This document shows, piece after piece, positions 4,126 through 15,034 of a stretch of DNA of 39,135 nucleotides; position 1 is the first letter of the stretch; each line of letters begins with the position of its first letter. This stretch comes from a virus, in IMG/VR virus record IMGVR_UViG_3300046718_000591, positions 1 to 39,135 of that record. One strand, 5' to 3'. The position numbers were made by a program, and so were the translations under genes. The notes below the pieces were generated by a model. That model saw only the letters and a program-made list of their open reading frames with translations. It was not told the DNA's origin and did no database searches.

Positions 4126-6350
4126 TTCCTCCCTGCTAGCTGAATCGGTACGTAGCCGTCGGAGAGGACGCGGTGTACCAGGCCTGTGAGCGTGGCGGCG
4201 TCTGCACGGTCGTTCTGCGCGTGCATTCGGTCCTGCGTTCCGGTGGCGGCCCAGTCGGCGAAGACGGTGCCGCGGCAGCGGTCGCCGCCGGCGCAGTCGA
4301 TGTAGCCGCCGTTGGGGTAGAGGGCGGCGACGGCGGTGACGATGCCGGGGTCGGTGGTGTTGCCGATGTACTCGCCGTCGACGGCGCGGCAGTTAGAACA
4401 AGTGTTCTTGTCGTTCACCTCGCTGGCGTAGAGGTCCGCGGTCAGCCCGGAGTCGAGGATGGTGGCGATACGCGCGGCGTTCTGCGCCGACGACAGCGCC
4501 CCGCCCAGACGGCTGACGAGCGTGGCATCGGACAGATCGGCCAGGAACCCTTCGACGTCGTCGGCGACGGCGACCCCATCGATGTTGTCGCCCGCGCCGG
4601 CCCGCCGGAACGCCTCGGCGCCCGCTGCCAGCGCCAGCCCCATGGCCAGCAGTGCCGCGACGACGGCGGCGGCAGCGGCCAGGCCGTCACGGTCGGGGGT
4701 TTTCGGCTGGACGCCGGGCACGCCCTGGGCCCTGGCTTCCCGGGATGCCTGCGAGGCGGCTTTCGCGGCCATCGCGGCCATCGCGGCCAGGATCAGTGCG
4801 GCGCCGTCGGTGGAGTCGACGTCCAGGGATGTGAGGTCCTCGGTGTTCCCGGCGTCGACGAGTGCCTGGATCTGGTCCAGCAGCTGCTGCCGCTGCGCGG
4901 GGAGGATCTGCGCGAGGTAGGCGGCGACCAGGGCCGCGACTGCGGCCTTCCACTGGGCGTCGACCTGGTCGAGGTCATGGTCCGGGGCGGTCTTGGCCGC
5001 GGCGCGGGCCCGGGTCATGGTGATGGTTTCGCGGCGCCGGTTCTGGGCTTCGGCTTCGGCGTTGGGGACGCCGGGCAGCGCCGCGGGCCCGGTCGGCAGC
5101 GCCGGCGGCGGCGGGGTGGCGGGCTCGGCGAAATCCATGTCCGGCAGCCCGACGGTCTCCAGCACGTCGTGCGGGTCGTATCCGGCCGCGACGAGCGCGG
5201 CGGCGGACTGGGACTTGGACAGCAGCTCCGCAGCGGCGCCCTCGGCGTTGGTCTTGGACGGGTCGTCGTAGTCGAACTCCACCGTCTTGTCCGCGCCGCC
5301 GAACAGCGGCAGCAGCTTGGAGTTGAGGGTGTCGCGGCGCCGGTTGAGACGGGGCAGCATCTGCCAGTCGACGAAGGTTTCCTCGGCGGTCTGGGCGTTG
5401 GCGCGGTTGACGTCGTCGCTGCTGCCCATCATGGCCTTGTGGATGCGCCAGGCCTCGCGCAGCTCGTCGCGGTTGGCCAGCCGCAGCTGCCCGTACTCCA
5501 TGTCCTTGTTGGTGTGGGCGTTCGGCTCCCATGTCATGCCGTCTTCCAGGACGCCGACCTGGCCGGCGCGGGCGACGCCGCGGTGGGACTCGCGCCACCG
5601 GTTGATGAGCTCGTCGAACTGCGGCTCGGTGAGGCGGTTGGGGACGGTGATGACGCCGCCGGGGTCGGCGCCGTTGAGGAACAGGTTCCGCTGGTATTCG
5701 GTGGCGTATCGCTGCTGCTGGATGTTCGGCAGGATCGAGGCGACGGGTCCGGCGCCGCGGTAGGGGTCCAGGGGGCTGGGCCGTTTCTCCAGGATGACTT
5801 CGGAGTCTTTCAGCGGTACCTGTGTGCCGTCGGGGCCGGTGTAGATCCAGCCGACGAGGAACCGGTCTGGGTCGGGGACGGGTTCCATGCGGTCGGGGCG
5901 GACGTACCACATGGAGGTGGGGAATCCGGCTTCGGTGTCCAGGATCCAGAATGTTTCGCCGGTGAGTTCTTCGTGCTGGTTGGAGCCTTCTCTGAACTCG
6001 AAGCCGCTATGCCACGAATTGGGGTTGTTCCATAGTTGGATGGCTGCGTGTTGGACGACTTGGGTGCGCTGGTCGGATCCTTTGTCGCCGGTGGTGTAGC
6101 GGACGCGGCCGTCTTGTGGGGGTTTCTTGTACAGCTTCCAGGGGGGTGTGGCGGCGGATTCGGCGAGGAGGCTGACGATGCCGTAGATGGTGCCGGACAT
6201 GCCGTATTGGCGCATGGATGTTTCGGCGTCTTGGCGTCCGTTGCCGAGGTTGAAGGAGAGTCCGCGGCGTGCTGCGGATATGCCGTCGCCGAGGGGGATG
6301 GGGGGTTTGCCTGCGTTGCGGGGGCGGAGCGCTTTCCCGATGAGGCTCAC
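4122..6350 (-). CDS. Portal protein fused to MuF-like minor head domain
   Basis: A 742-aa protein from a GTG at 6350 (VSLIGKALRPRNAG) that overlaps the stop of the small membrane protein as GTGA. A longer upstream frame exists but is only the shadow of that gene. Residues ~1-430 are an HK97-type portal: MRQYGMSGTIYGIVSLLAES, GETFWILDTEAGFPTSMWYV, GVITVPNRLTEPQFDELINR, NRANAQTAEETFVDWQMLPR. This is the dodecameric gate for DNA packaging and ejection. After a Pro/Ala linker (~450-500) a long Ala-rich helical region leads to a MuF/SPP1 gp7-type ending with NTCSNCRAVDGEY (649-661) and DCAGGDRCRG (~686-693), the usual Cys-rich metal site. Portal and minor head protein are usually separate genes, so the fusion is notable. 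Confidence 0.93.
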   Translation of the reverse strand: MSLIGKALRPRNAGKPPIPLGDGISAARRGLSFNLGNGRQDAETSMRQYGMSGTIYGIVSLLAESAATPPWKLYKKPPQDGRVRYTTGDKGSDQRTQVVQHAAIQLWNNPNSWHSGFEFREGSNQHEELTGETFWILDTEAGFPTSMWYVRPDRMEPVPDPDRFLVGWIYTGPDGTQVPLKDSEVILEKRPSPLDPYRGAGPVASILPNIQQQRYATEYQRNLFLNGADPGGVITVPNRLTEPQFDELINRWRESHRGVARAGQVGVLEDGMTWEPNAHTNKDMEYGQLRLANRDELREAWRIHKAMMGSSDDVNRANAQTAEETFVDWQMLPRLNRRRDTLNSKLLPLFGGADKTVEFDYDDPSKTNAEGAAAELLSKSQSAAALVAAGYDPHDVLETVGLPDMDFAEPATPPPPALPTGPAALPGVPNAEAEAQNRRRETITMTRARAAAKTAPDHDLDQVDAQWKAAVAALVAAYLAQILPAQRQQLLDQIQALVDAGNTEDLTSLDVDSTDGAALILAAMAAMAAKAASQASREARAQGVPGVQPKTPDRDGLAAAAAVVAALLAMGLALAAGAEAFRRAGAGDNIDGVAVADDVEGFLADLSDATLVSRLGGALSSAQNAARIATILDSGLTADLYASEVNDKNTCSNCRAVDGEYIGNTTDPGIVTAVAALYPNGGYIDCAGGDRCRGTVFADWAATGTQDRMHAQNDRADAATLTGLVHRVLSDGYVPIQLAGRK

Positions 6351-6805: not shown

Positions 6806-6966
6806 GGCTCGGCACGGCGTGGCTAGGCGTGGCGCGGCGTGGCTCGGCTCGGCGAGGCGAGGTCCCTGACGGGAGGTTCCCGCGCAGGCAACTGCGCGGG
6901 TTCCCCTCGGCAGGGCTCGGCAGGGCTCGGCCGGGCATGGCTGGGCATGGCAAGGCGAGGCAGGGG
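6806..6966 (+). promoter_or_regulatory. GGCNN pentamer double array: 11 + hairpin + 11, RNA leader
   Basis: GGC occurs at 6806, 6811, 6816, 6821, 6826, 6831, 6836, 6841, 6846, 6851 and 6856: eleven triplets, each followed by two variable bases. The next unit is broken (GGT at 6861). After 48 nt containing a strong hairpin, GGC resumes at 6909 and then every 5 nt to 6959: again exactly eleven, broken by GGG at 6964. The two spacer bases vary widely while GGC is invariant, so the period is selected rather than copied. The arrays end about 30 nt before the ATG at 6995 and would sit in its 5' leader RNA. Five-base spacing excludes coding. The pattern recalls the (G/U)AG triplets spaced by 2-3 nt that the 11-subunit TRAP ring binds, so an RNA-binding oligomer is the favoured reading (inference). 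Confidence 0.85.
6879..6900 (+). promoter_or_regulatory. 9-bp hairpin with GCAA tetraloop between the arrays
   Basis: CCCGCGCAG (6879-6887) pairs perfectly with CTGCGCGGG (6892-6900) around a GNRA-type GCAA loop. Shorter alternative pairings flank it: TCCC/GGGA at 6863-6874 and GAGG/CCTC at 6873-6876 / 6905-6908. It divides the two GGCNN arrays symmetrically and would be very stable in RNA. It could act as an attenuator, a spacer holding two bound rings apart, or a nuclease stop. Confidence 0.75.
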
Positions 6967-6994
6967 TTCCACCACCACAGAAACGGATCAACAC

Positions 6995-7579
6995 ATGGAC
7001 TTGCAACTCAACATCACCGGAACCGCACCACTCCTCATGCACAACGCACGCCTGTCCAACCCCCTCGACCCCATAGCCCGCGCCATGAAGAAAGTCAGCG
7101 CCAAACGCAGCAAAGCAGAAGACGACTACCAGGAAATCGCACACCTGGAGTTCCTCGGCGGCCTGTACTCCGACCCCGACGTCGGCCCCTACCTGCCGGG
7201 CGACAACATGTTCCGCGCACTCATAGACGCAGGCCGCAAACGCAAACTCGGCATCAAAGTCACATCCGGCGTCATCGTCACCTCAGACATCAACCCGATC
7301 GCCTACAAGGGATCGCGCGACCCAGAGGAACTGTGGAACGAAGGCGGCTTCATCTTCCAAGCGTCAGCGAAGGTCGGACAGCAGCGCATCATCCGCACAC
7401 GGCCCCGCTTCACAACATGGGCCACCTCGGCAACGCTCTACCTCGACACCGAAGTCCTCGACCTCGACGACCTCACCCAGCTCGTCGACATCGCCGGACG
7501 GCTCATCGGTCTGGGTGACTGGCGGCCGCGCTTCGGCCGGTTCGAGGCGACCCTGACCGTCACCAAGGCCGTGTCGTGA
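6995..7579 (+). CDS. RAMP/Cas7-like phage protein behind the GGCNN leader
   Basis: A 194-aa protein starting MDLQLNITGTAPLLMHN; the start follows an ACGGA motif about 8 nt upstream. The open frame extends 5' into the arrays, but that part is a repeat artefact. Three marks recall RAMP (Cas7/Csm3-type) RNA-binding proteins: an opening beta strand with PLLMHN (12-17), YLPGDNMFRAL (66-76) in the place of the RAMP 'PGSSLRGALR' segment, and a Gly/Arg-rich ending GLGDWRPRFGRF (172-183) like the RAMP glycine loop. No Cas neighbours or CRISPR array are visible, so it would be a stand-alone member. The fold is inferred from motifs only. It is coupled to the next gene by GTGA. The obvious hypothesis is that it binds its own GGCNN leader RNA or similar targets. 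Confidence 0.8.
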   Translation: MDLQLNITGTAPLLMHNARLSNPLDPIARAMKKVSAKRSKAEDDYQEIAHLEFLGGLYSDPDVGPYLPGDNMFRALIDAGRKRKLGIKVTSGVIVTSDINPIAYKGSRDPEELWNEGGFIFQASAKVGQQRIIRTRPRFTTWATSATLYLDTEVLDLDDLTQLVDIAGRLIGLGDWRPRFGRFEATLTVTKAVS

Positions 7580-8118
7580 GCCCGTTCAAACCGCTCGGCG
7601 ACGAGGCCCGCTGGCGCACCCTCTACGACCTGCTGCGCGCCACGCCCACCGGAACGGTCCTCACCTACCGACAGATGGCCAACGCGCTCGGCCTCGACCC
7701 GGTACGCCACCGCTCGGCGATGGCTAGTGCCATGCGCAAAGCCGCCGAGGAACACGAGGAGCAGGACAAGCGCGCCATTGAAGTCGTCCGCGATGAGGGG
7801 TACAGGGTGGTGGACGTTGACGGCCACCTGCGCCTTGCGCACGTTCACGGGCGTCGGGCCGGGGCGCAGTTGGAGATGGCGTATTCGAAGGTCACCAACG
7901 TGGACTTGTCCGACGTTGATCCGGAGGTCCGCAAGGGCTTCGAGGTGGTTGCGCGCGGATTCCTGGAGCAGATGGAGATCAACCGTCGGCTGTCGGCGAG
8001 GCAGCGGCGGACCGAGCGGGCACTGGATGCAGTGATGCAACGTGGCGAACGCACGGAAGAGGAAATCGCGGAGCTGCATGCACGGCTAGAGGCGCTGGAA
8101 TCACGCGCCAAGCAATAG
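7576..8118 (+). CDS. Winged-helix / coiled-coil partner of RAMP-like protein
   Basis: A 180-aa protein starting at a GTG that overlaps the previous stop (GTGA), so the two are made together. Residues ~10-75 look like a winged helix or MGMT-like DNA-binding unit: PTGTVLTYRQMANALGLDP, a basic recognition stretch RHRSAMASAMRKA, then VVRDEGYRVVDVDGHLRLAH as wing. Residues ~115-178 are a long charged coiled coil (FLEQMEINRRLSARQRRTER ... EIAELHARLEALES). Together this suggests a dimeric or oligomeric nucleic-acid-binding factor. No named family is recognised. A two-gene operon behind an unusual leader suggests a regulator or defence-type pair. Confidence 0.8.
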   Translation: MSPFKPLGDEARWRTLYDLLRATPTGTVLTYRQMANALGLDPVRHRSAMASAMRKAAEEHEEQDKRAIEVVRDEGYRVVDVDGHLRLAHVHGRRAGAQLEMAYSKVTNVDLSDVDPEVRKGFEVVARGFLEQMEINRRLSARQRRTERALDAVMQRGERTEEEIAELHARLEALESRAKQ

Positions 8119-8135
8119 CGGAAATACGCGCAATC

Positions 8136-8165
8136 GACTCCACATAATGCTTGTTATGCGGAGTC
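8136..8165. terminator. Bidirectional terminator-like hairpin between convergent genes
   Basis: GACTCC-A-CATAA (8136-8147) pairs with TTATG-C-GGAGTC (8154-8165), one A-C mismatch, loop TGCTTG. It lies 17 nt after the plus-strand stop at 8118 and 26 nt before the terminase stop on the other strand, an ideal spot for a shared terminator. There is no long T-run, as is common in actinobacteria. Confidence 0.6.
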
Positions 8166-8192
8166 CGGCGCGCCGGGGTGGCGCGCCACCCC
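8165..8192. repeat. Two fused perfect palindromes with GGCGCGCC cores
   Basis: CCGGCGCGCCGG (8165-8176) and GGGGTGGCGCGCCACCCC (8175-8192) are both perfectly self-complementary, overlap by two bases, and have identical 8-bp cores 13 bp apart. The second ends on the first base read by the terminase stop codon (TAG, complement of 8192-8194). They could reinforce termination or bind a dimeric protein. Confidence 0.65.
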
Positions 8193-9622
8193 TACCGGCT
8201 GAACGACCGGTACCGCGGCTGCGGGCCCACGAACAACTGGTGCAGCACCTGCGACATGGTGTCCACACGGTCGTCGTGCGCACCGTTCGGGAACGCCGAC
8301 ATCTCCTCGATGAAGTCCCCGATCCACGGGGCGATCGACGCCGCCGGGATCTCGATGTCGCCGGCCTCGATGAACGGGGTGACCGCGTGCACCCGGGCCT
8401 CCTTGGAGTCCTTCGGGGTGACCGCGGTTATCCCGCCGATCTCTCTGCGCAGCTGGGAGATGACCGCCGGGCCGTTGGCCTTGTCCTCGATGAGCTTGCG
8501 GCTGGCCTGAGGCCACTTGGCCGTGGTCTCACGGATCAGTTGGCAGGTGGCGGGGAAGTCGGCGCGGGCCCGTACCTCGTCCAGTAGCCACGCTTTCGAG
8601 CCGGAACGCGCCCACACCTGACCGACGACGTAGTCGCTGATCTTGGTGTCCTTGAATGCCAAATCCCAGCTCTGCACGACCTCGTCGGCGCCGAGGGCAC
8701 GCCAGGAGCCGTCGTCGTGCCGTACCGCACGGGGGGCGGTGTAGAACACCCACCAGCTCCGCTTGATGATGCCGCCCTCGCCCGGGGACGGCCGGCCCTG
8801 GAAAAGAGCTGCGAAGTCGCGGGCTCCGGCATCCTTCCGCCGCCGCTCCCAGCCGGCCGTGGTGCGTCCGCGCGCGGACACCATCCACTGGCCCGGGTCG
8901 CGGCCGAGCAGATCCGTCTCGCCGAGCTCCGGCTTGTGGTCGGCCTGCGCCGGGATGTTGATATGACGCCAGCCCTCAGGATCCTCAATGAGCTGCCAGC
9001 CGATGAAGTCGTCCTCATGCCAGCGAGTCTGTACGGCTACGCACGGAGCGTTCTCGGCAAGGCGAGGTGCGCCGGTGGATCGCCAGAAGTCCTTGACGGT
9101 CTCGCGTTCGATCTCCGATTCGGCTTCCCGCCGTCCCTTTAGCGGGTCGTCGATGACCATCGCGTCAAGGGGGCGGCCGGTGAGTGAGCCGCGGATACCG
9201 ACGGTGACGACGCCGCCGTCGTGGCCTTCCAGCTGCCATTCGTTCGCGGCTTTGCTGTCGGCGGCGAGGACCAGGCCGAGCTCCGGGTTGCCGATGATGT
9301 CGTTGCGGACGGTGCGGCCCCAGCGGCGGGCGAGCGCGTCGGAGTAGGACACGACGCCGATGCGCATGTCAGGGTTGCGTAGCAGCAGCCACAGGACAAA
9401 CCAGCGGGAGACGCGCAGCGACTTACCCTCCTGCGGCGCCATCGACAGCAACAGCCGCGGCCGGGTGCCGTCGGCGGCGTCGACGAGCGCGCCGTCGATG
9501 ATGTCAAGGGCCGGCGTCTGGACAGTGCGGGGTTCCAGAGCGCGGGCCAGGTCGCCAGGGGTCGAGTAGTTCGCGGCACCGCCGGACAGTCGTTGCTCCA
9601 GGAAGTCGAGCTCGTCGAGCAT
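8192..9622 (-). CDS. terL: Terminase large subunit
   Basis: A 476-aa packaging motor and nuclease. ATPase part: Walker A APQEGKS (62-68), Walker B AMVIDDP (154-160), coupling motif QTRWHEDD (198-205). RNase H-like nuclease part: SWDLAFKD (318-325) with the first metal-binding Asp, IEDKANG (378-384), and HDDRVD (449-454) with the last acidic pair. The length is ordinary for the family. It follows terminase small subunit with an 8-nt gap on the same strand. It would cut concatemers and drive DNA through the portal. Unusually, a plus-strand two-gene insert separates it from portal, so head genes probably need their own promoter or read through from here. Confidence 0.96.
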   Translation of the reverse strand: MLDELDFLEQRLSGGAANYSTPGDLARALEPRTVQTPALDIIDGALVDAADGTRPRLLLSMAPQEGKSLRVSRWFVLWLLLRNPDMRIGVVSYSDALARRWGRTVRNDIIGNPELGLVLAADSKAANEWQLEGHDGGVVTVGIRGSLTGRPLDAMVIDDPLKGRREAESEIERETVKDFWRSTGAPRLAENAPCVAVQTRWHEDDFIGWQLIEDPEGWRHINIPAQADHKPELGETDLLGRDPGQWMVSARGRTTAGWERRRKDAGARDFAALFQGRPSPGEGGIIKRSWWVFYTAPRAVRHDDGSWRALGADEVVQSWDLAFKDTKISDYVVGQVWARSGSKAWLLDEVRARADFPATCQLIRETTAKWPQASRKLIEDKANGPAVISQLRREIGGITAVTPKDSKEARVHAVTPFIEAGDIEIPAASIAPWIGDFIEEMSAFPNGAHDDRVDTMSQVLHQLFVGPQPRYRSFSR

Positions 9623-12431: not shown

Positions 12432-12538
12432 CTCCCTGCCCTCCCTGTAAGGGTCACGACGGATACGCTGCTGACCAGCGCAAGGGAGAGGTTCAGGGAG
12501 CCGGTCAGGGAAACTCCCTATCCCCTCGCCGTCTCCCT
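12432..12538. repeat. Cluster of CTCCCT/AGGGAG hexamers between convergent genes
   Basis: CTCCCT occurs on the plus strand at 12432, 12441, 12514 and 12533. Its complement AGGGAG occurs at 12483 and 12495, with a related CAGGGA at 12506. AGGGA-AAC-TCCCT at 12507-12519 is a small hairpin. It lies between the 199-aa gene and the FtsK gene, which converge. It may be a terminator zone or a protein-binding cluster; DNA translocases of the FtsK/TraB type recognise short repeated motifs. Confidence 0.45.
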
Positions 12539-14861
12539 ACGGTTCGGGAGTCTCGCCGGCCACCGATTCGCGGGCATCCAGAGCCGCCCGAACCTCGGCA
12601 TGGTCGACGTGCATCGTGCCGTCCTTCGTCTTGTACGGCACGACCGCATGCGGCGCGAGCTCCGTCCCGAGCTTGTTCACGGTCCAGCCCGCGTAGGCAT
12701 CCGGGTCGGTCGCGGCCAGGCGCCGGACGACCTCCGAGGACTTCACCAACGTCTCGTCCGGGCCGAGGACGCCGGCGACGTCGCCCAGGACGTCGCGGTC
12801 CTCGACGTCGACCGCCGGGTCCCTGGTCGCCACCGGCCTGCGCATCGCCTTGGCGCGGTCGGCGATGACGATCGCCGCCTTGCCGTCGACGAAGTGCGTC
12901 CGGATCGTCAGCGAGGCCTGTCCGGGCGGAAGCTCCACCCCATCGCCCGCGACGACGAGCGTGCCCTTGTCGAGGCCCTGGCGGAGCTTGTGCGGCGCCG
13001 CCCCGCCGTCGATCGCCTTGTCTCCGAGCGCCATCCGGGCCTGCGCCTCGGTACCGACGACCAGCGAGGCGCGGATGTGCGCGCCCTCGCGGACCAGCTT
13101 GGGCAAGTTCTGGTCGGTCGGGTCCTGCGTGCCCTGCCACAGCAGGACGTTGACCGCGCGGCCCTGGTTGTGGATCTTCCGCGCGGCCATGAAGTAGCGG
13201 CTCGTGGCCTTGGTGCCGCCGTAGGGCCGGCGATCGGGGCCGATCGCCGGGCACATGAACGCCTGCTGCGCCTCGTCGACGACCAGGATCAGCGGGTGGA
13301 ACCCGGATCCGGCCTTGCGCGCCATGTCGCGGGTCACGCCGTCGGTGGCGCCGGACTTCTCCAGCGCCACCGTGCGGCGCTCCATCTCGGTGACGCCGTC
13401 TTCGAGCATCTCCGTCGCGGCGATGCAGTGCTCGTCGGTCGGGCCCTGGATGAGCACCGTGGCCAGGCCGTTCAGCATCCGCCAGTCCCCGACGCCCTTC
13501 AAGTCGGCAAGGCGGACCTCGACGAACCGGTCGAGCAGGGCCCACAGGACCAGCGCCCTCAAGGCCGCGGTCTTGCCCTGGTTACTCAGGCCCGTGATGA
13601 GCAGGTGACGCTGAAGCAGGCTGATCAGCGCCGCGCCGCCGCGCAGGTCCTGACCCCACGGCGCGCGGCCGGCGTACAGGTCGGCGACGAGGTCGGGTTC
13701 GATGACCAGCGGAGACGGGCCGATCGGCTCGTCAAGGGCGCCGCTGTCGGCGATCCACAGCCGGACGGTGCGAGGGGCCGGCGGAATCGTGATGAACACC
13801 TCGTGCTCGTGGCGGTGCAGGTTCTCCGCGAGCTTGCGGCGGCTGTTCTGGATCTCCAGCGTTGACGTGCCTTCCGGGAGTGTGACGTCGACCTCGACGC
13901 CGCACCCGGCGATCCTGATGAGGCTGAGCATGGTGGCGCCGTTGTCGCCCATGGCCTTGATCTTCGTCCGCAGGTTGGCGATGCCGAGCTCGCGCAGGGC
14001 GACGACGACGAGCGACGGGGTGATCGGGGCACTGTCGGTGTCCGTCTGGCCTTCCGGTGCGAGCCAGGCGGGCATCTCGGCGCGCTTGCGGCCGACCGAC
14101 CACAGCGTCATCAGGCCCGCGAACACGGCCGTGAGCACCGCGGGCGCCCACAGGATGGACGCGAGGGTGATGGTGAAGCGGACGACGTCCACGGCCGTCA
14201 GCAGCGGTACCGCGGCCTCGTGGGGGTCCCTGTTCGCCGCGGCCAGGCACACCCCGATCAGCAGCAGCACGCCCACCGCCGTGGCGGTGCCGTAGGTGAC
14301 GGCCTTAGCGGCGTGGACGGGGGCGTGGAGCAGCTGCATGCGGCGGGCGTGGCGGGCGGCACGGTGCTGAGATGCCCGCTCCTCCCAGATCAAGGCGACC
14401 TGGTGGTCGCCCTTCGCCTCGGCCGCCCTCATGAATCGGTGGTGCCTGGCGGTCGTGCGCTCGTCGCGCAGGTGCCGGCGGGTCAGGACGGCGCCCGCAC
14501 CGACGAAGACGACCTGGCGGGCGGCGGCGCGGGTGACGCGGTGCTCGGCGACGACCCTGACCTTGTGGAACGGCCGTCGCGGCTCGTCGGCGGCATCCTC
14601 CTCGACCTCGACCGAGGCGGCGGCGCTGGCTTGGTCGACCACCGGAGCGGCGTCGGCCACGGGCGCGTCCTGCTGCTCGGTGCTGTTCTCCTGCGCCTCC
14701 AGGTGCTCGGCGAGGTCGGTGTACCCGGGGCCTGCCTGGCGCCCGTCGTCGCGCAGGAACTCCGGGACGTCGAGGTCTTCGGCGTCGGCGGGCCCGCGGT
14801 TGACGTCGTCGGCCTGCGCCGGGACCAGCCGCTGGTAGCCGTTGAGCTGCTGCTCGGTCAT
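12537..14861 (-). CDS. FtsK/SpoIIIE-type DNA translocase
   Basis: 774 aa from the ATG at 14861, overlapping the previous stop (ATGA). An acidic N-terminus (~1-100) and a basic helical region (~140-185) precede two membrane spans (~190-209 and ~227-254). A linker domain and the motor follow: Walker A GLSNQGKT (424-431), LADLKGVGDW, Walker B LILVVDEAQ (524-532), and the VLLWQGTQDP sensor region. The C-terminus (~690-770) resembles a small winged-helix unit. The sequence type matches FtsK-like proteins of Streptomyces integrative and conjugative elements, which pump double-stranded DNA between hyphae. In a phage it could aid DNA transfer or segregation. Its upstream partner is the DUF2637 protein. 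Confidence 0.9.
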   Translation of the reverse strand: MTEQQLNGYQRLVPAQADDVNRGPADAEDLDVPEFLRDDGRQAGPGYTDLAEHLEAQENSTEQQDAPVADAAPVVDQASAAASVEVEEDAADEPRRPFHKVRVVAEHRVTRAAARQVVFVGAGAVLTRRHLRDERTTARHHRFMRAAEAKGDHQVALIWEERASQHRAARHARRMQLLHAPVHAAKAVTYGTATAVGVLLLIGVCLAAANRDPHEAAVPLLTAVDVVRFTITLASILWAPAVLTAVFAGLMTLWSVGRKRAEMPAWLAPEGQTDTDSAPITPSLVVVALRELGIANLRTKIKAMGDNGATMLSLIRIAGCGVEVDVTLPEGTSTLEIQNSRRKLAENLHRHEHEVFITIPPAPRTVRLWIADSGALDEPIGPSPLVIEPDLVADLYAGRAPWGQDLRGGAALISLLQRHLLITGLSNQGKTAALRALVLWALLDRFVEVRLADLKGVGDWRMLNGLATVLIQGPTDEHCIAATEMLEDGVTEMERRTVALEKSGATDGVTRDMARKAGSGFHPLILVVDEAQQAFMCPAIGPDRRPYGGTKATSRYFMAARKIHNQGRAVNVLLWQGTQDPTDQNLPKLVREGAHIRASLVVGTEAQARMALGDKAIDGGAAPHKLRQGLDKGTLVVAGDGVELPPGQASLTIRTHFVDGKAAIVIADRAKAMRRPVATRDPAVDVEDRDVLGDVAGVLGPDETLVKSSEVVRRLAATDPDAYAGWTVNKLGTELAPHAVVPYKTKDGTMHVDHAEVRAALDARESVAGETPEP

Positions 14862-15034
14862 CGCTGCCACCACCGGAGGTTCGCCTCGGCGCGGATGACG
14901 GCGATGTTCGCGTCAAGCCAGGCGTCCGTCTCCTCGTAGATGCCTGCCTTGCACATCTCGCGGTAGACGCGATCGAGTTCGGCGCGCGCGGCCTTGTGCG
15001 TGGCGCGTGCCGACTTGCGGACAGAGGAGGTCAT
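14858..15034 (-). CDS. Small basic helical protein, 58 aa
   Basis: MTSSVRKSARATHKAARAEL starts a helical protein continuing DRVYREMCKAGIYEETDAWL and ending NLRWWQR. ATGA overlaps join it to the genes on both sides, so it is made with FtsK. The basic N-terminus and hydrophobic C-terminal helix suggest a small partner of the translocase. No family recognised. Confidence 0.6.
   Translation of the reverse strand: MTSSVRKSARATHKAARAELDRVYREMCKAGIYEETDAWLDANIAVIRAEANLRWWQR

Follow-up and report, generated by a model that had tools for sequence, protein, structure and literature searches.

The window analysed here is a stretch of 39,135 nucleotides of viral DNA (IMG/VR record IMGVR_UViG_3300046718_000591) with a GC content of 68%. 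It contains portal, terminase, protease, capsid, Erf and integrase genes. Because an integrase is encoded, the phage is probably temperate. Between the portal and terminase genes, both on the minus strand, lies a cassette on the plus strand. The original prediction covered positions 6806–6966, a pair of GGCNN runs around a hairpin; the cassette extends past 6966 to 8118 and takes in two genes. Its parts are as follows, with the RNA and gene names anticipating the assignment made below.

6806–6860, plus strand: repeat tract of vrRNA1, 11 GGCNN units, NN = TC AC GT TA GT GC GT TC TC GA GA
6861–6908, plus strand: vrRNA1 tail or spacer, with a 9-bp stem and a possible small hairpin, in place of the minihelix of relatives
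6909–6963, plus strand: repeat tract of vrRNA2, 11 GGCNN units, NN = AG TC AG TC CG AT TG AT AA GA AG
6964–6994, plus strand: start of the vrRNA2 tail, GTTCCACC (6966–6973), the same as an L001 array tail, followed by the 5' leader of vipr
6995–7579, plus strand: vipr, a 194-aa RAMP protein of phrog_4652 with a conserved G-loop-like motif, GLGDWRPRFGRF
7576–8118, plus strand: vap, a 180-aa accessory gene of phrog_5926, homologous to the accessory gene of SUSP1

An orientation opposite to that of the flanking late genes is as expected for cargo. The vap and terminase genes converge, and the DNA between them (8120–8195) contains a pair of strong inverted repeats, GACTCC...GGAGTC and GGGGTGGCGCGCCACCCC, possibly a shared terminator. 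Elsewhere in the window, positions 12537–14873 encode a 778-aa FtsK/SpoIIIE-like protein (phrog_1358).

Direct reading of the letters confirms that each run contains exactly 11 GGCNN units, both on the plus strand, and that they lie on either side of a 9-bp stem closed by a GCAA loop (6879–6900, CCCGCGCAG-GCAA-CTGCGCGGG). Counted in the register YNNGG, each array also has 11 repeats. Directly 3' of the first run, GGTCC (6861–6865) forms a twelfth GGY unit. Nothing comparable occurs by simulation: GGYNN runs reached at most 6 units on either strand across 300 windows simulated from a dinucleotide-Markov model, and a scan of the whole window with all trinucleotides at periods 4–12 picked out the two runs and nothing else, at period 5 and again at its multiple, 10. 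Segment 6861–6910 folds with an energy of -30.4 kcal/mol (z -3.8). A small hairpin, TCCC-TGAC-GGGA, can also be drawn by eye at 6863–6874, where the minimum free energy fold pairs the GGG otherwise. The two arrays differ in what follows them. Downstream of array 1 comes the stable stem; after array 2 there is just GTTCCACC and then the vipr leader. Array 2 ends 31 nt from the vipr ATG and has no structured tail of the kind seen in a typical vrRNA. The GTTCCACC sequence is identical to the tail of one array in the closest relative, locus L001. No promoter consensus was found by a scan, and an Rfam search at the arrays gave no credible family match. A coding role for the arrays was rejected, as they lie outside the conserved vipr frame, whose start at 6995 is set by family alignment.

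The 194-aa protein matches phrog_4652, a family annotated as function unknown, at 1.6e-57, and has no match in a Pfam search. Among its relatives the motif G-x-GDWRPRxG is strictly conserved near the C-terminus. A search against PDB sequences returned a sole match, chain 36pp_D, described as 'SUSP1 Vipr protein', with E=3.4e-34 for a single sequence in phmmer and E=1.3e-71 for a profile. The AlphaFold2 model has a pLDDT of 93.5, and its best structural matches in the PDB are Csm3/Cas7-type CRISPR subunits (best E=4e-6). By sequence homology and predicted structure, the protein is a Vipr, that is, a RAMP protein with a Cas7-like fold. The product of 7576–8118 matches phrog_5926 (E 8.6e-6), as does the gene after vipr in SUSP1 (locus L033; E 1e-75). 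It is 79% identical to its L001 homologue and 19% identical to that of SUSP1, and it has a weak match to an MGMT-type DNA-binding domain.

VIPR systems have been described as consisting of a small RAMP protein, a vap gene and vrRNAs, each vrRNA made of 9–16 YNNGG repeats and a 3' tail (PMC13142463; bioRxiv 2026.04.26.720920, a preprint). In that account the NN positions are hypervariable and pair with double-stranded DNA, one base being skipped per step (PMC13142463). The evidence comprises small-RNA sequencing, co-purification, competitive binding, GFP repression and plaque assays, in which the plating of lambda was cut five-log (PMC13142463). VIPR has been proposed to precede CRISPR.

The window is assigned to VIPR because its proteins, arrays and setting agree with this description. 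It has a homologue of Vipr, an adjoining vap gene, tracts of 11 units (within 9–16) with constant GGY and variable NN, same-strand intergenic arrays flanking vipr, and a viral carrier. We estimate a probability of about 0.92 that this is a phage-borne VIPR cassette in which the GGCNN tracts are two vrRNAs that guide Vipr to silence matching DNA. It shares with SUSP1 a homologous Vipr (E=3e-34), a phrog_5926 accessory gene, sense-strand GGY/NN arrays and carriage by a phage. SUSP1 differs in that its units are a GGT-rich GGY mix, whereas those of the window are all GGC; both window arrays lie upstream of vipr; and the SUSP1 tail is described as a pseudoknot, in contrast to the GCAA stem of the window spacer. 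The accessory gene suggests a SUSP1-like type II assignment, made from that gene rather than from a phylogeny. Closer still are the actinophage VIPRs (loci L001–L016, among them LittleE genes 34/33, prophiBWHA-1 43/42 and MakoManhole 78/77), which have the same gene pair, GGYNN arrays in most cases and, in L001, the same GTTCCACC tail start; many of them have minihelices between arrays, unlike the window. The window thus adds an actinophage member to a kind of system already known. A form of RNA-guided DNA recognition described in 2026, with a non-contiguous code, is now placed in a new actinophage genome from raw sequence.

By analogy with the published system, many copies of Vipr would line each GGCNN tract, about one per 5-nt unit (PMC13142463). 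Vipr would grip the GGY of each unit and leave the NN pair exposed, and the exposed pairs would recognise double-stranded DNA in the pattern NNxNNxNN, skipping one base each time (PMC13142463). Binding to a target would block transcription, a step extrapolated from the reported silencing (PMC13142463), and the vap product would assist. The genes targeted would probably be those of rival phages or prophages. This arrangement resembles Class 1 CRISPR-Cas (Cas7/Csm3) in its RAMP fold, a protein filament on an RNA guide and regularly interrupted pairing. The window differs in having a single small RAMP, a 5-nt period, a non-contiguous code and guides encoded between phage genes. Membership in class 1 CRISPR-Cas was considered and rejected: there are no CRISPR repeats at the locus, which has one RAMP gene and the phrog_5926 gene.

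We compared the window with 64 viral and bacterial-genome loci encoding the protein (L001–L049 and L051–L065), some of them near-duplicates, such as L003 and L051. Arrays were detected with a period-5 GGY finder, and 274 kb of unrelated viral contigs served as the control. The 64 loci contain 133 GGYNN arrays on the sense strand and none on the antisense strand (135 versus 0 with the window); the control contigs contain none on either strand. Arrays lie upstream of the gene pair, downstream of it or on both sides, many loci having downstream arrays. Unit numbers range from 6 to 31, mostly 8–17. In some clades the units are GGT-rich or degenerate, and in a minority of loci the finder accepted no array. 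Even in L001, where the protein is 80% identical, the NN content of the arrays is unrelated to that of the window. The expectation that GGC is constrained and NN free was borne out. A functionless slippage repeat could account for a short period in a 68% GC phage, but not for GGC remaining perfect while NN varies, for the 133-to-0 strand bias in the other loci, for the absence of arrays from control contigs, or for their tie to one protein family across phages of very different hosts; simulated windows, too, show no runs above 6. The association, the strand bias and the controls refute such a neutral microsatellite, and we give it next to no weight.

Two further observations concern the arrays and surroundings of particular clades. 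In L001 (2480–3000) and L004 (2690–2990), GGC alternates in register, in some arrays, with near-misses such as CGC, GTC, GAC or AGC; this clade may tolerate variation at a single position of the constant triplet. In the alphaproteobacterial-type loci L017, L019, L020, L023 and L024, the frame just upstream of vipr is HNH endonuclease-like by eye, and in several of them GGYNN arrays lie 3' of vipr.

The same tabulation bears on the number eleven. TRAP is an 11-subunit ring that binds 11 (G/U)AG triplets. The original prediction had likened the two runs to such a site, counted by a ring, and had proposed that one or two ring- or filament-forming proteins, perhaps the product of the next gene, bind them. 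Eleven regular triplets with 2-nt spacers, twice over, do resemble a TRAP leader. The likeness ends there: the triplet is GGY and not (G/U)AG, the partner has a Cas7-like fold and is a RAMP filament protein rather than TRAP-like, the assigned role is that of a guide and not attenuation, and the 6–31 units found across loci carrying homologues are the free variation that had been named in advance as evidence against a counted site. A counted ring is refuted by this variation, and we regard it as extremely improbable. What stands of the proposal is the partner, since the next gene encodes Vipr/RAMP by PDB match and fold, and the filament, which is probable from the same homology and fold; the ring does not stand.

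The prediction also held that the leader RNA controls expression of the gene behind it: Vipr, or Vipr together with the vap product, would bind the GGCNN tracts of its own mRNA and repress its own translation. The position of the second array, 31 nt from the vipr ATG and without a structured tail, is consistent with this, and several actinophage relatives likewise have a final upstream array that is free of a minihelix and abuts the vipr start codon. However, NN and unit counts are freely variable, many loci have arrays downstream of the genes, and LittleE has a minihelix on its last upstream array. In SUSP1, moreover, the vrRNAs are separate RNAs of ~100 nt, which are recovered together with purified Vipr and direct its binding to DNA (PMC13142463). 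We consider a cis-regulatory leader unlikely as the main function, for which a guide RNA for DNA recognition is the best explanation; autoregulation through the leader-proximal array is possible as a secondary role. It is equally doubtful that this array serves as a sensor of free Vipr, instead of or besides acting as a guide.

If the arrays are guides, the one-base-skip rule predicts the target TCxACxGTxTAxGTxGCxGTxTCxTCxGAxGA for vrRNA1 and AGxTCxAGxTCxCGxATxTGxATxAAxGAxAG for vrRNA2. Among IMG/VR viral contigs, there was no exact 11-unit match to either and no 9-unit match (units 3–11) for either array; matches to units 1–8 extended no better than chance. Within the phage itself no site agrees at more than 16 of 22 letters. 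In genomes from the class of Mycobacterium (samples of 395 and 297), vrRNA2 had 2 matches with 3 mismatches and vrRNA1 had 8 matches with 2–3 mismatches. As the collections searched contain one genome per species, these negative results do not amount to a refutation of the guide reading. By a rough count these actinobacterial matches at 2–3 mismatches are near chance, and the two best lie outside clear phage genes. One match with 2 mismatches, in L115, falls within or beside a gene that resembles Cas6 on visual inspection; it was judged to be chance. Arrays of relatives gave no convincing target either, for L013 or for L003, the latter searched against 118 genomes of its host's genus. Because a target was found for neither guide in the searched collections, the proposed guide function of the window arrays rests on homology.

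Successive vrRNA arrays in the actinophage loci have a 42-nt element between them. It consists of a 5–6-bp stem, an 11-nt linker, a 6-bp T-arm-like stem and a closing strand, the 3' side being gapless. The linker contains GG in nearly every copy, and the T-arm-like loop reads TTCGANT or TCCGANT. Across 15 distinct copies, pairing is kept in 98.8% of cells and, for 10 of the 11 pairs, both partners vary; no shuffle or slide comparison comes near. The copies were located as follows.

Minihelices in L001, 2547–2588 and 2824–2865; in L004, 2845–2888; in L008, 2850–2891
Minihelices in L009, 4156–4197 and 4268–4309; in L010, 4208–4249, 4343–4385 and 4497–4538
Minihelices in L012, 2741–2782, 2876–2917, 4197–4238 and 4341–4381; in L013–L016, two each

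A covariance model finds the element only in actinophage VIPR loci, always on the sense strand, and recovers copies outside its training set (L010 4208 and 4343, L012 4341); it reports none in other VIPRs, the window or control contigs. The minihelix typically starts ~8 nt past the last repeat, after tails such as GTTCCACC, GATCCACC and GTTACACAAAC, and the next GGY typically follows 1–12 nt past its end. Its geometry is that of the acceptor/T-arm half of a tRNA, with 11–12 stacked pairs, a T-loop end and a D-loop-like GG opposite. The Rfam tRNA model does not report the minihelices, which fits a tRNA without an anticodon arm.

RNase P recognises acceptor/T-arm-type helices. The minihelix is probably a processing signal, although cutting by RNase P is our inference from its shape. 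One tentative scheme, to which we give clearly less than even odds, is that host RNase P and RNase Z excise the minihelices, so that each excision would release the 3' end of one vrRNA and the 5' end of the next. On this scheme the window would be derived, a GNRA stem having replaced the tRNA-elbow mimic, and its uncut leader-proximal array would also regulate vipr. The covarying tRNA-like spacer raises a question about vrRNA maturation, namely how precursors are cut where no dedicated enzyme is encoded. The main text of the VIPR preprint never mentions tRNA (PMC13142463), and the actinophage minihelix, found outside the window, is an addition to that main-text account.

Separately, L001 carries a full tRNA-like gene directly 3' of vap (4239–4310); its anticodon is not assignable by ARAGORN, and the Rfam tRNA model scores it at 44.7 bits.
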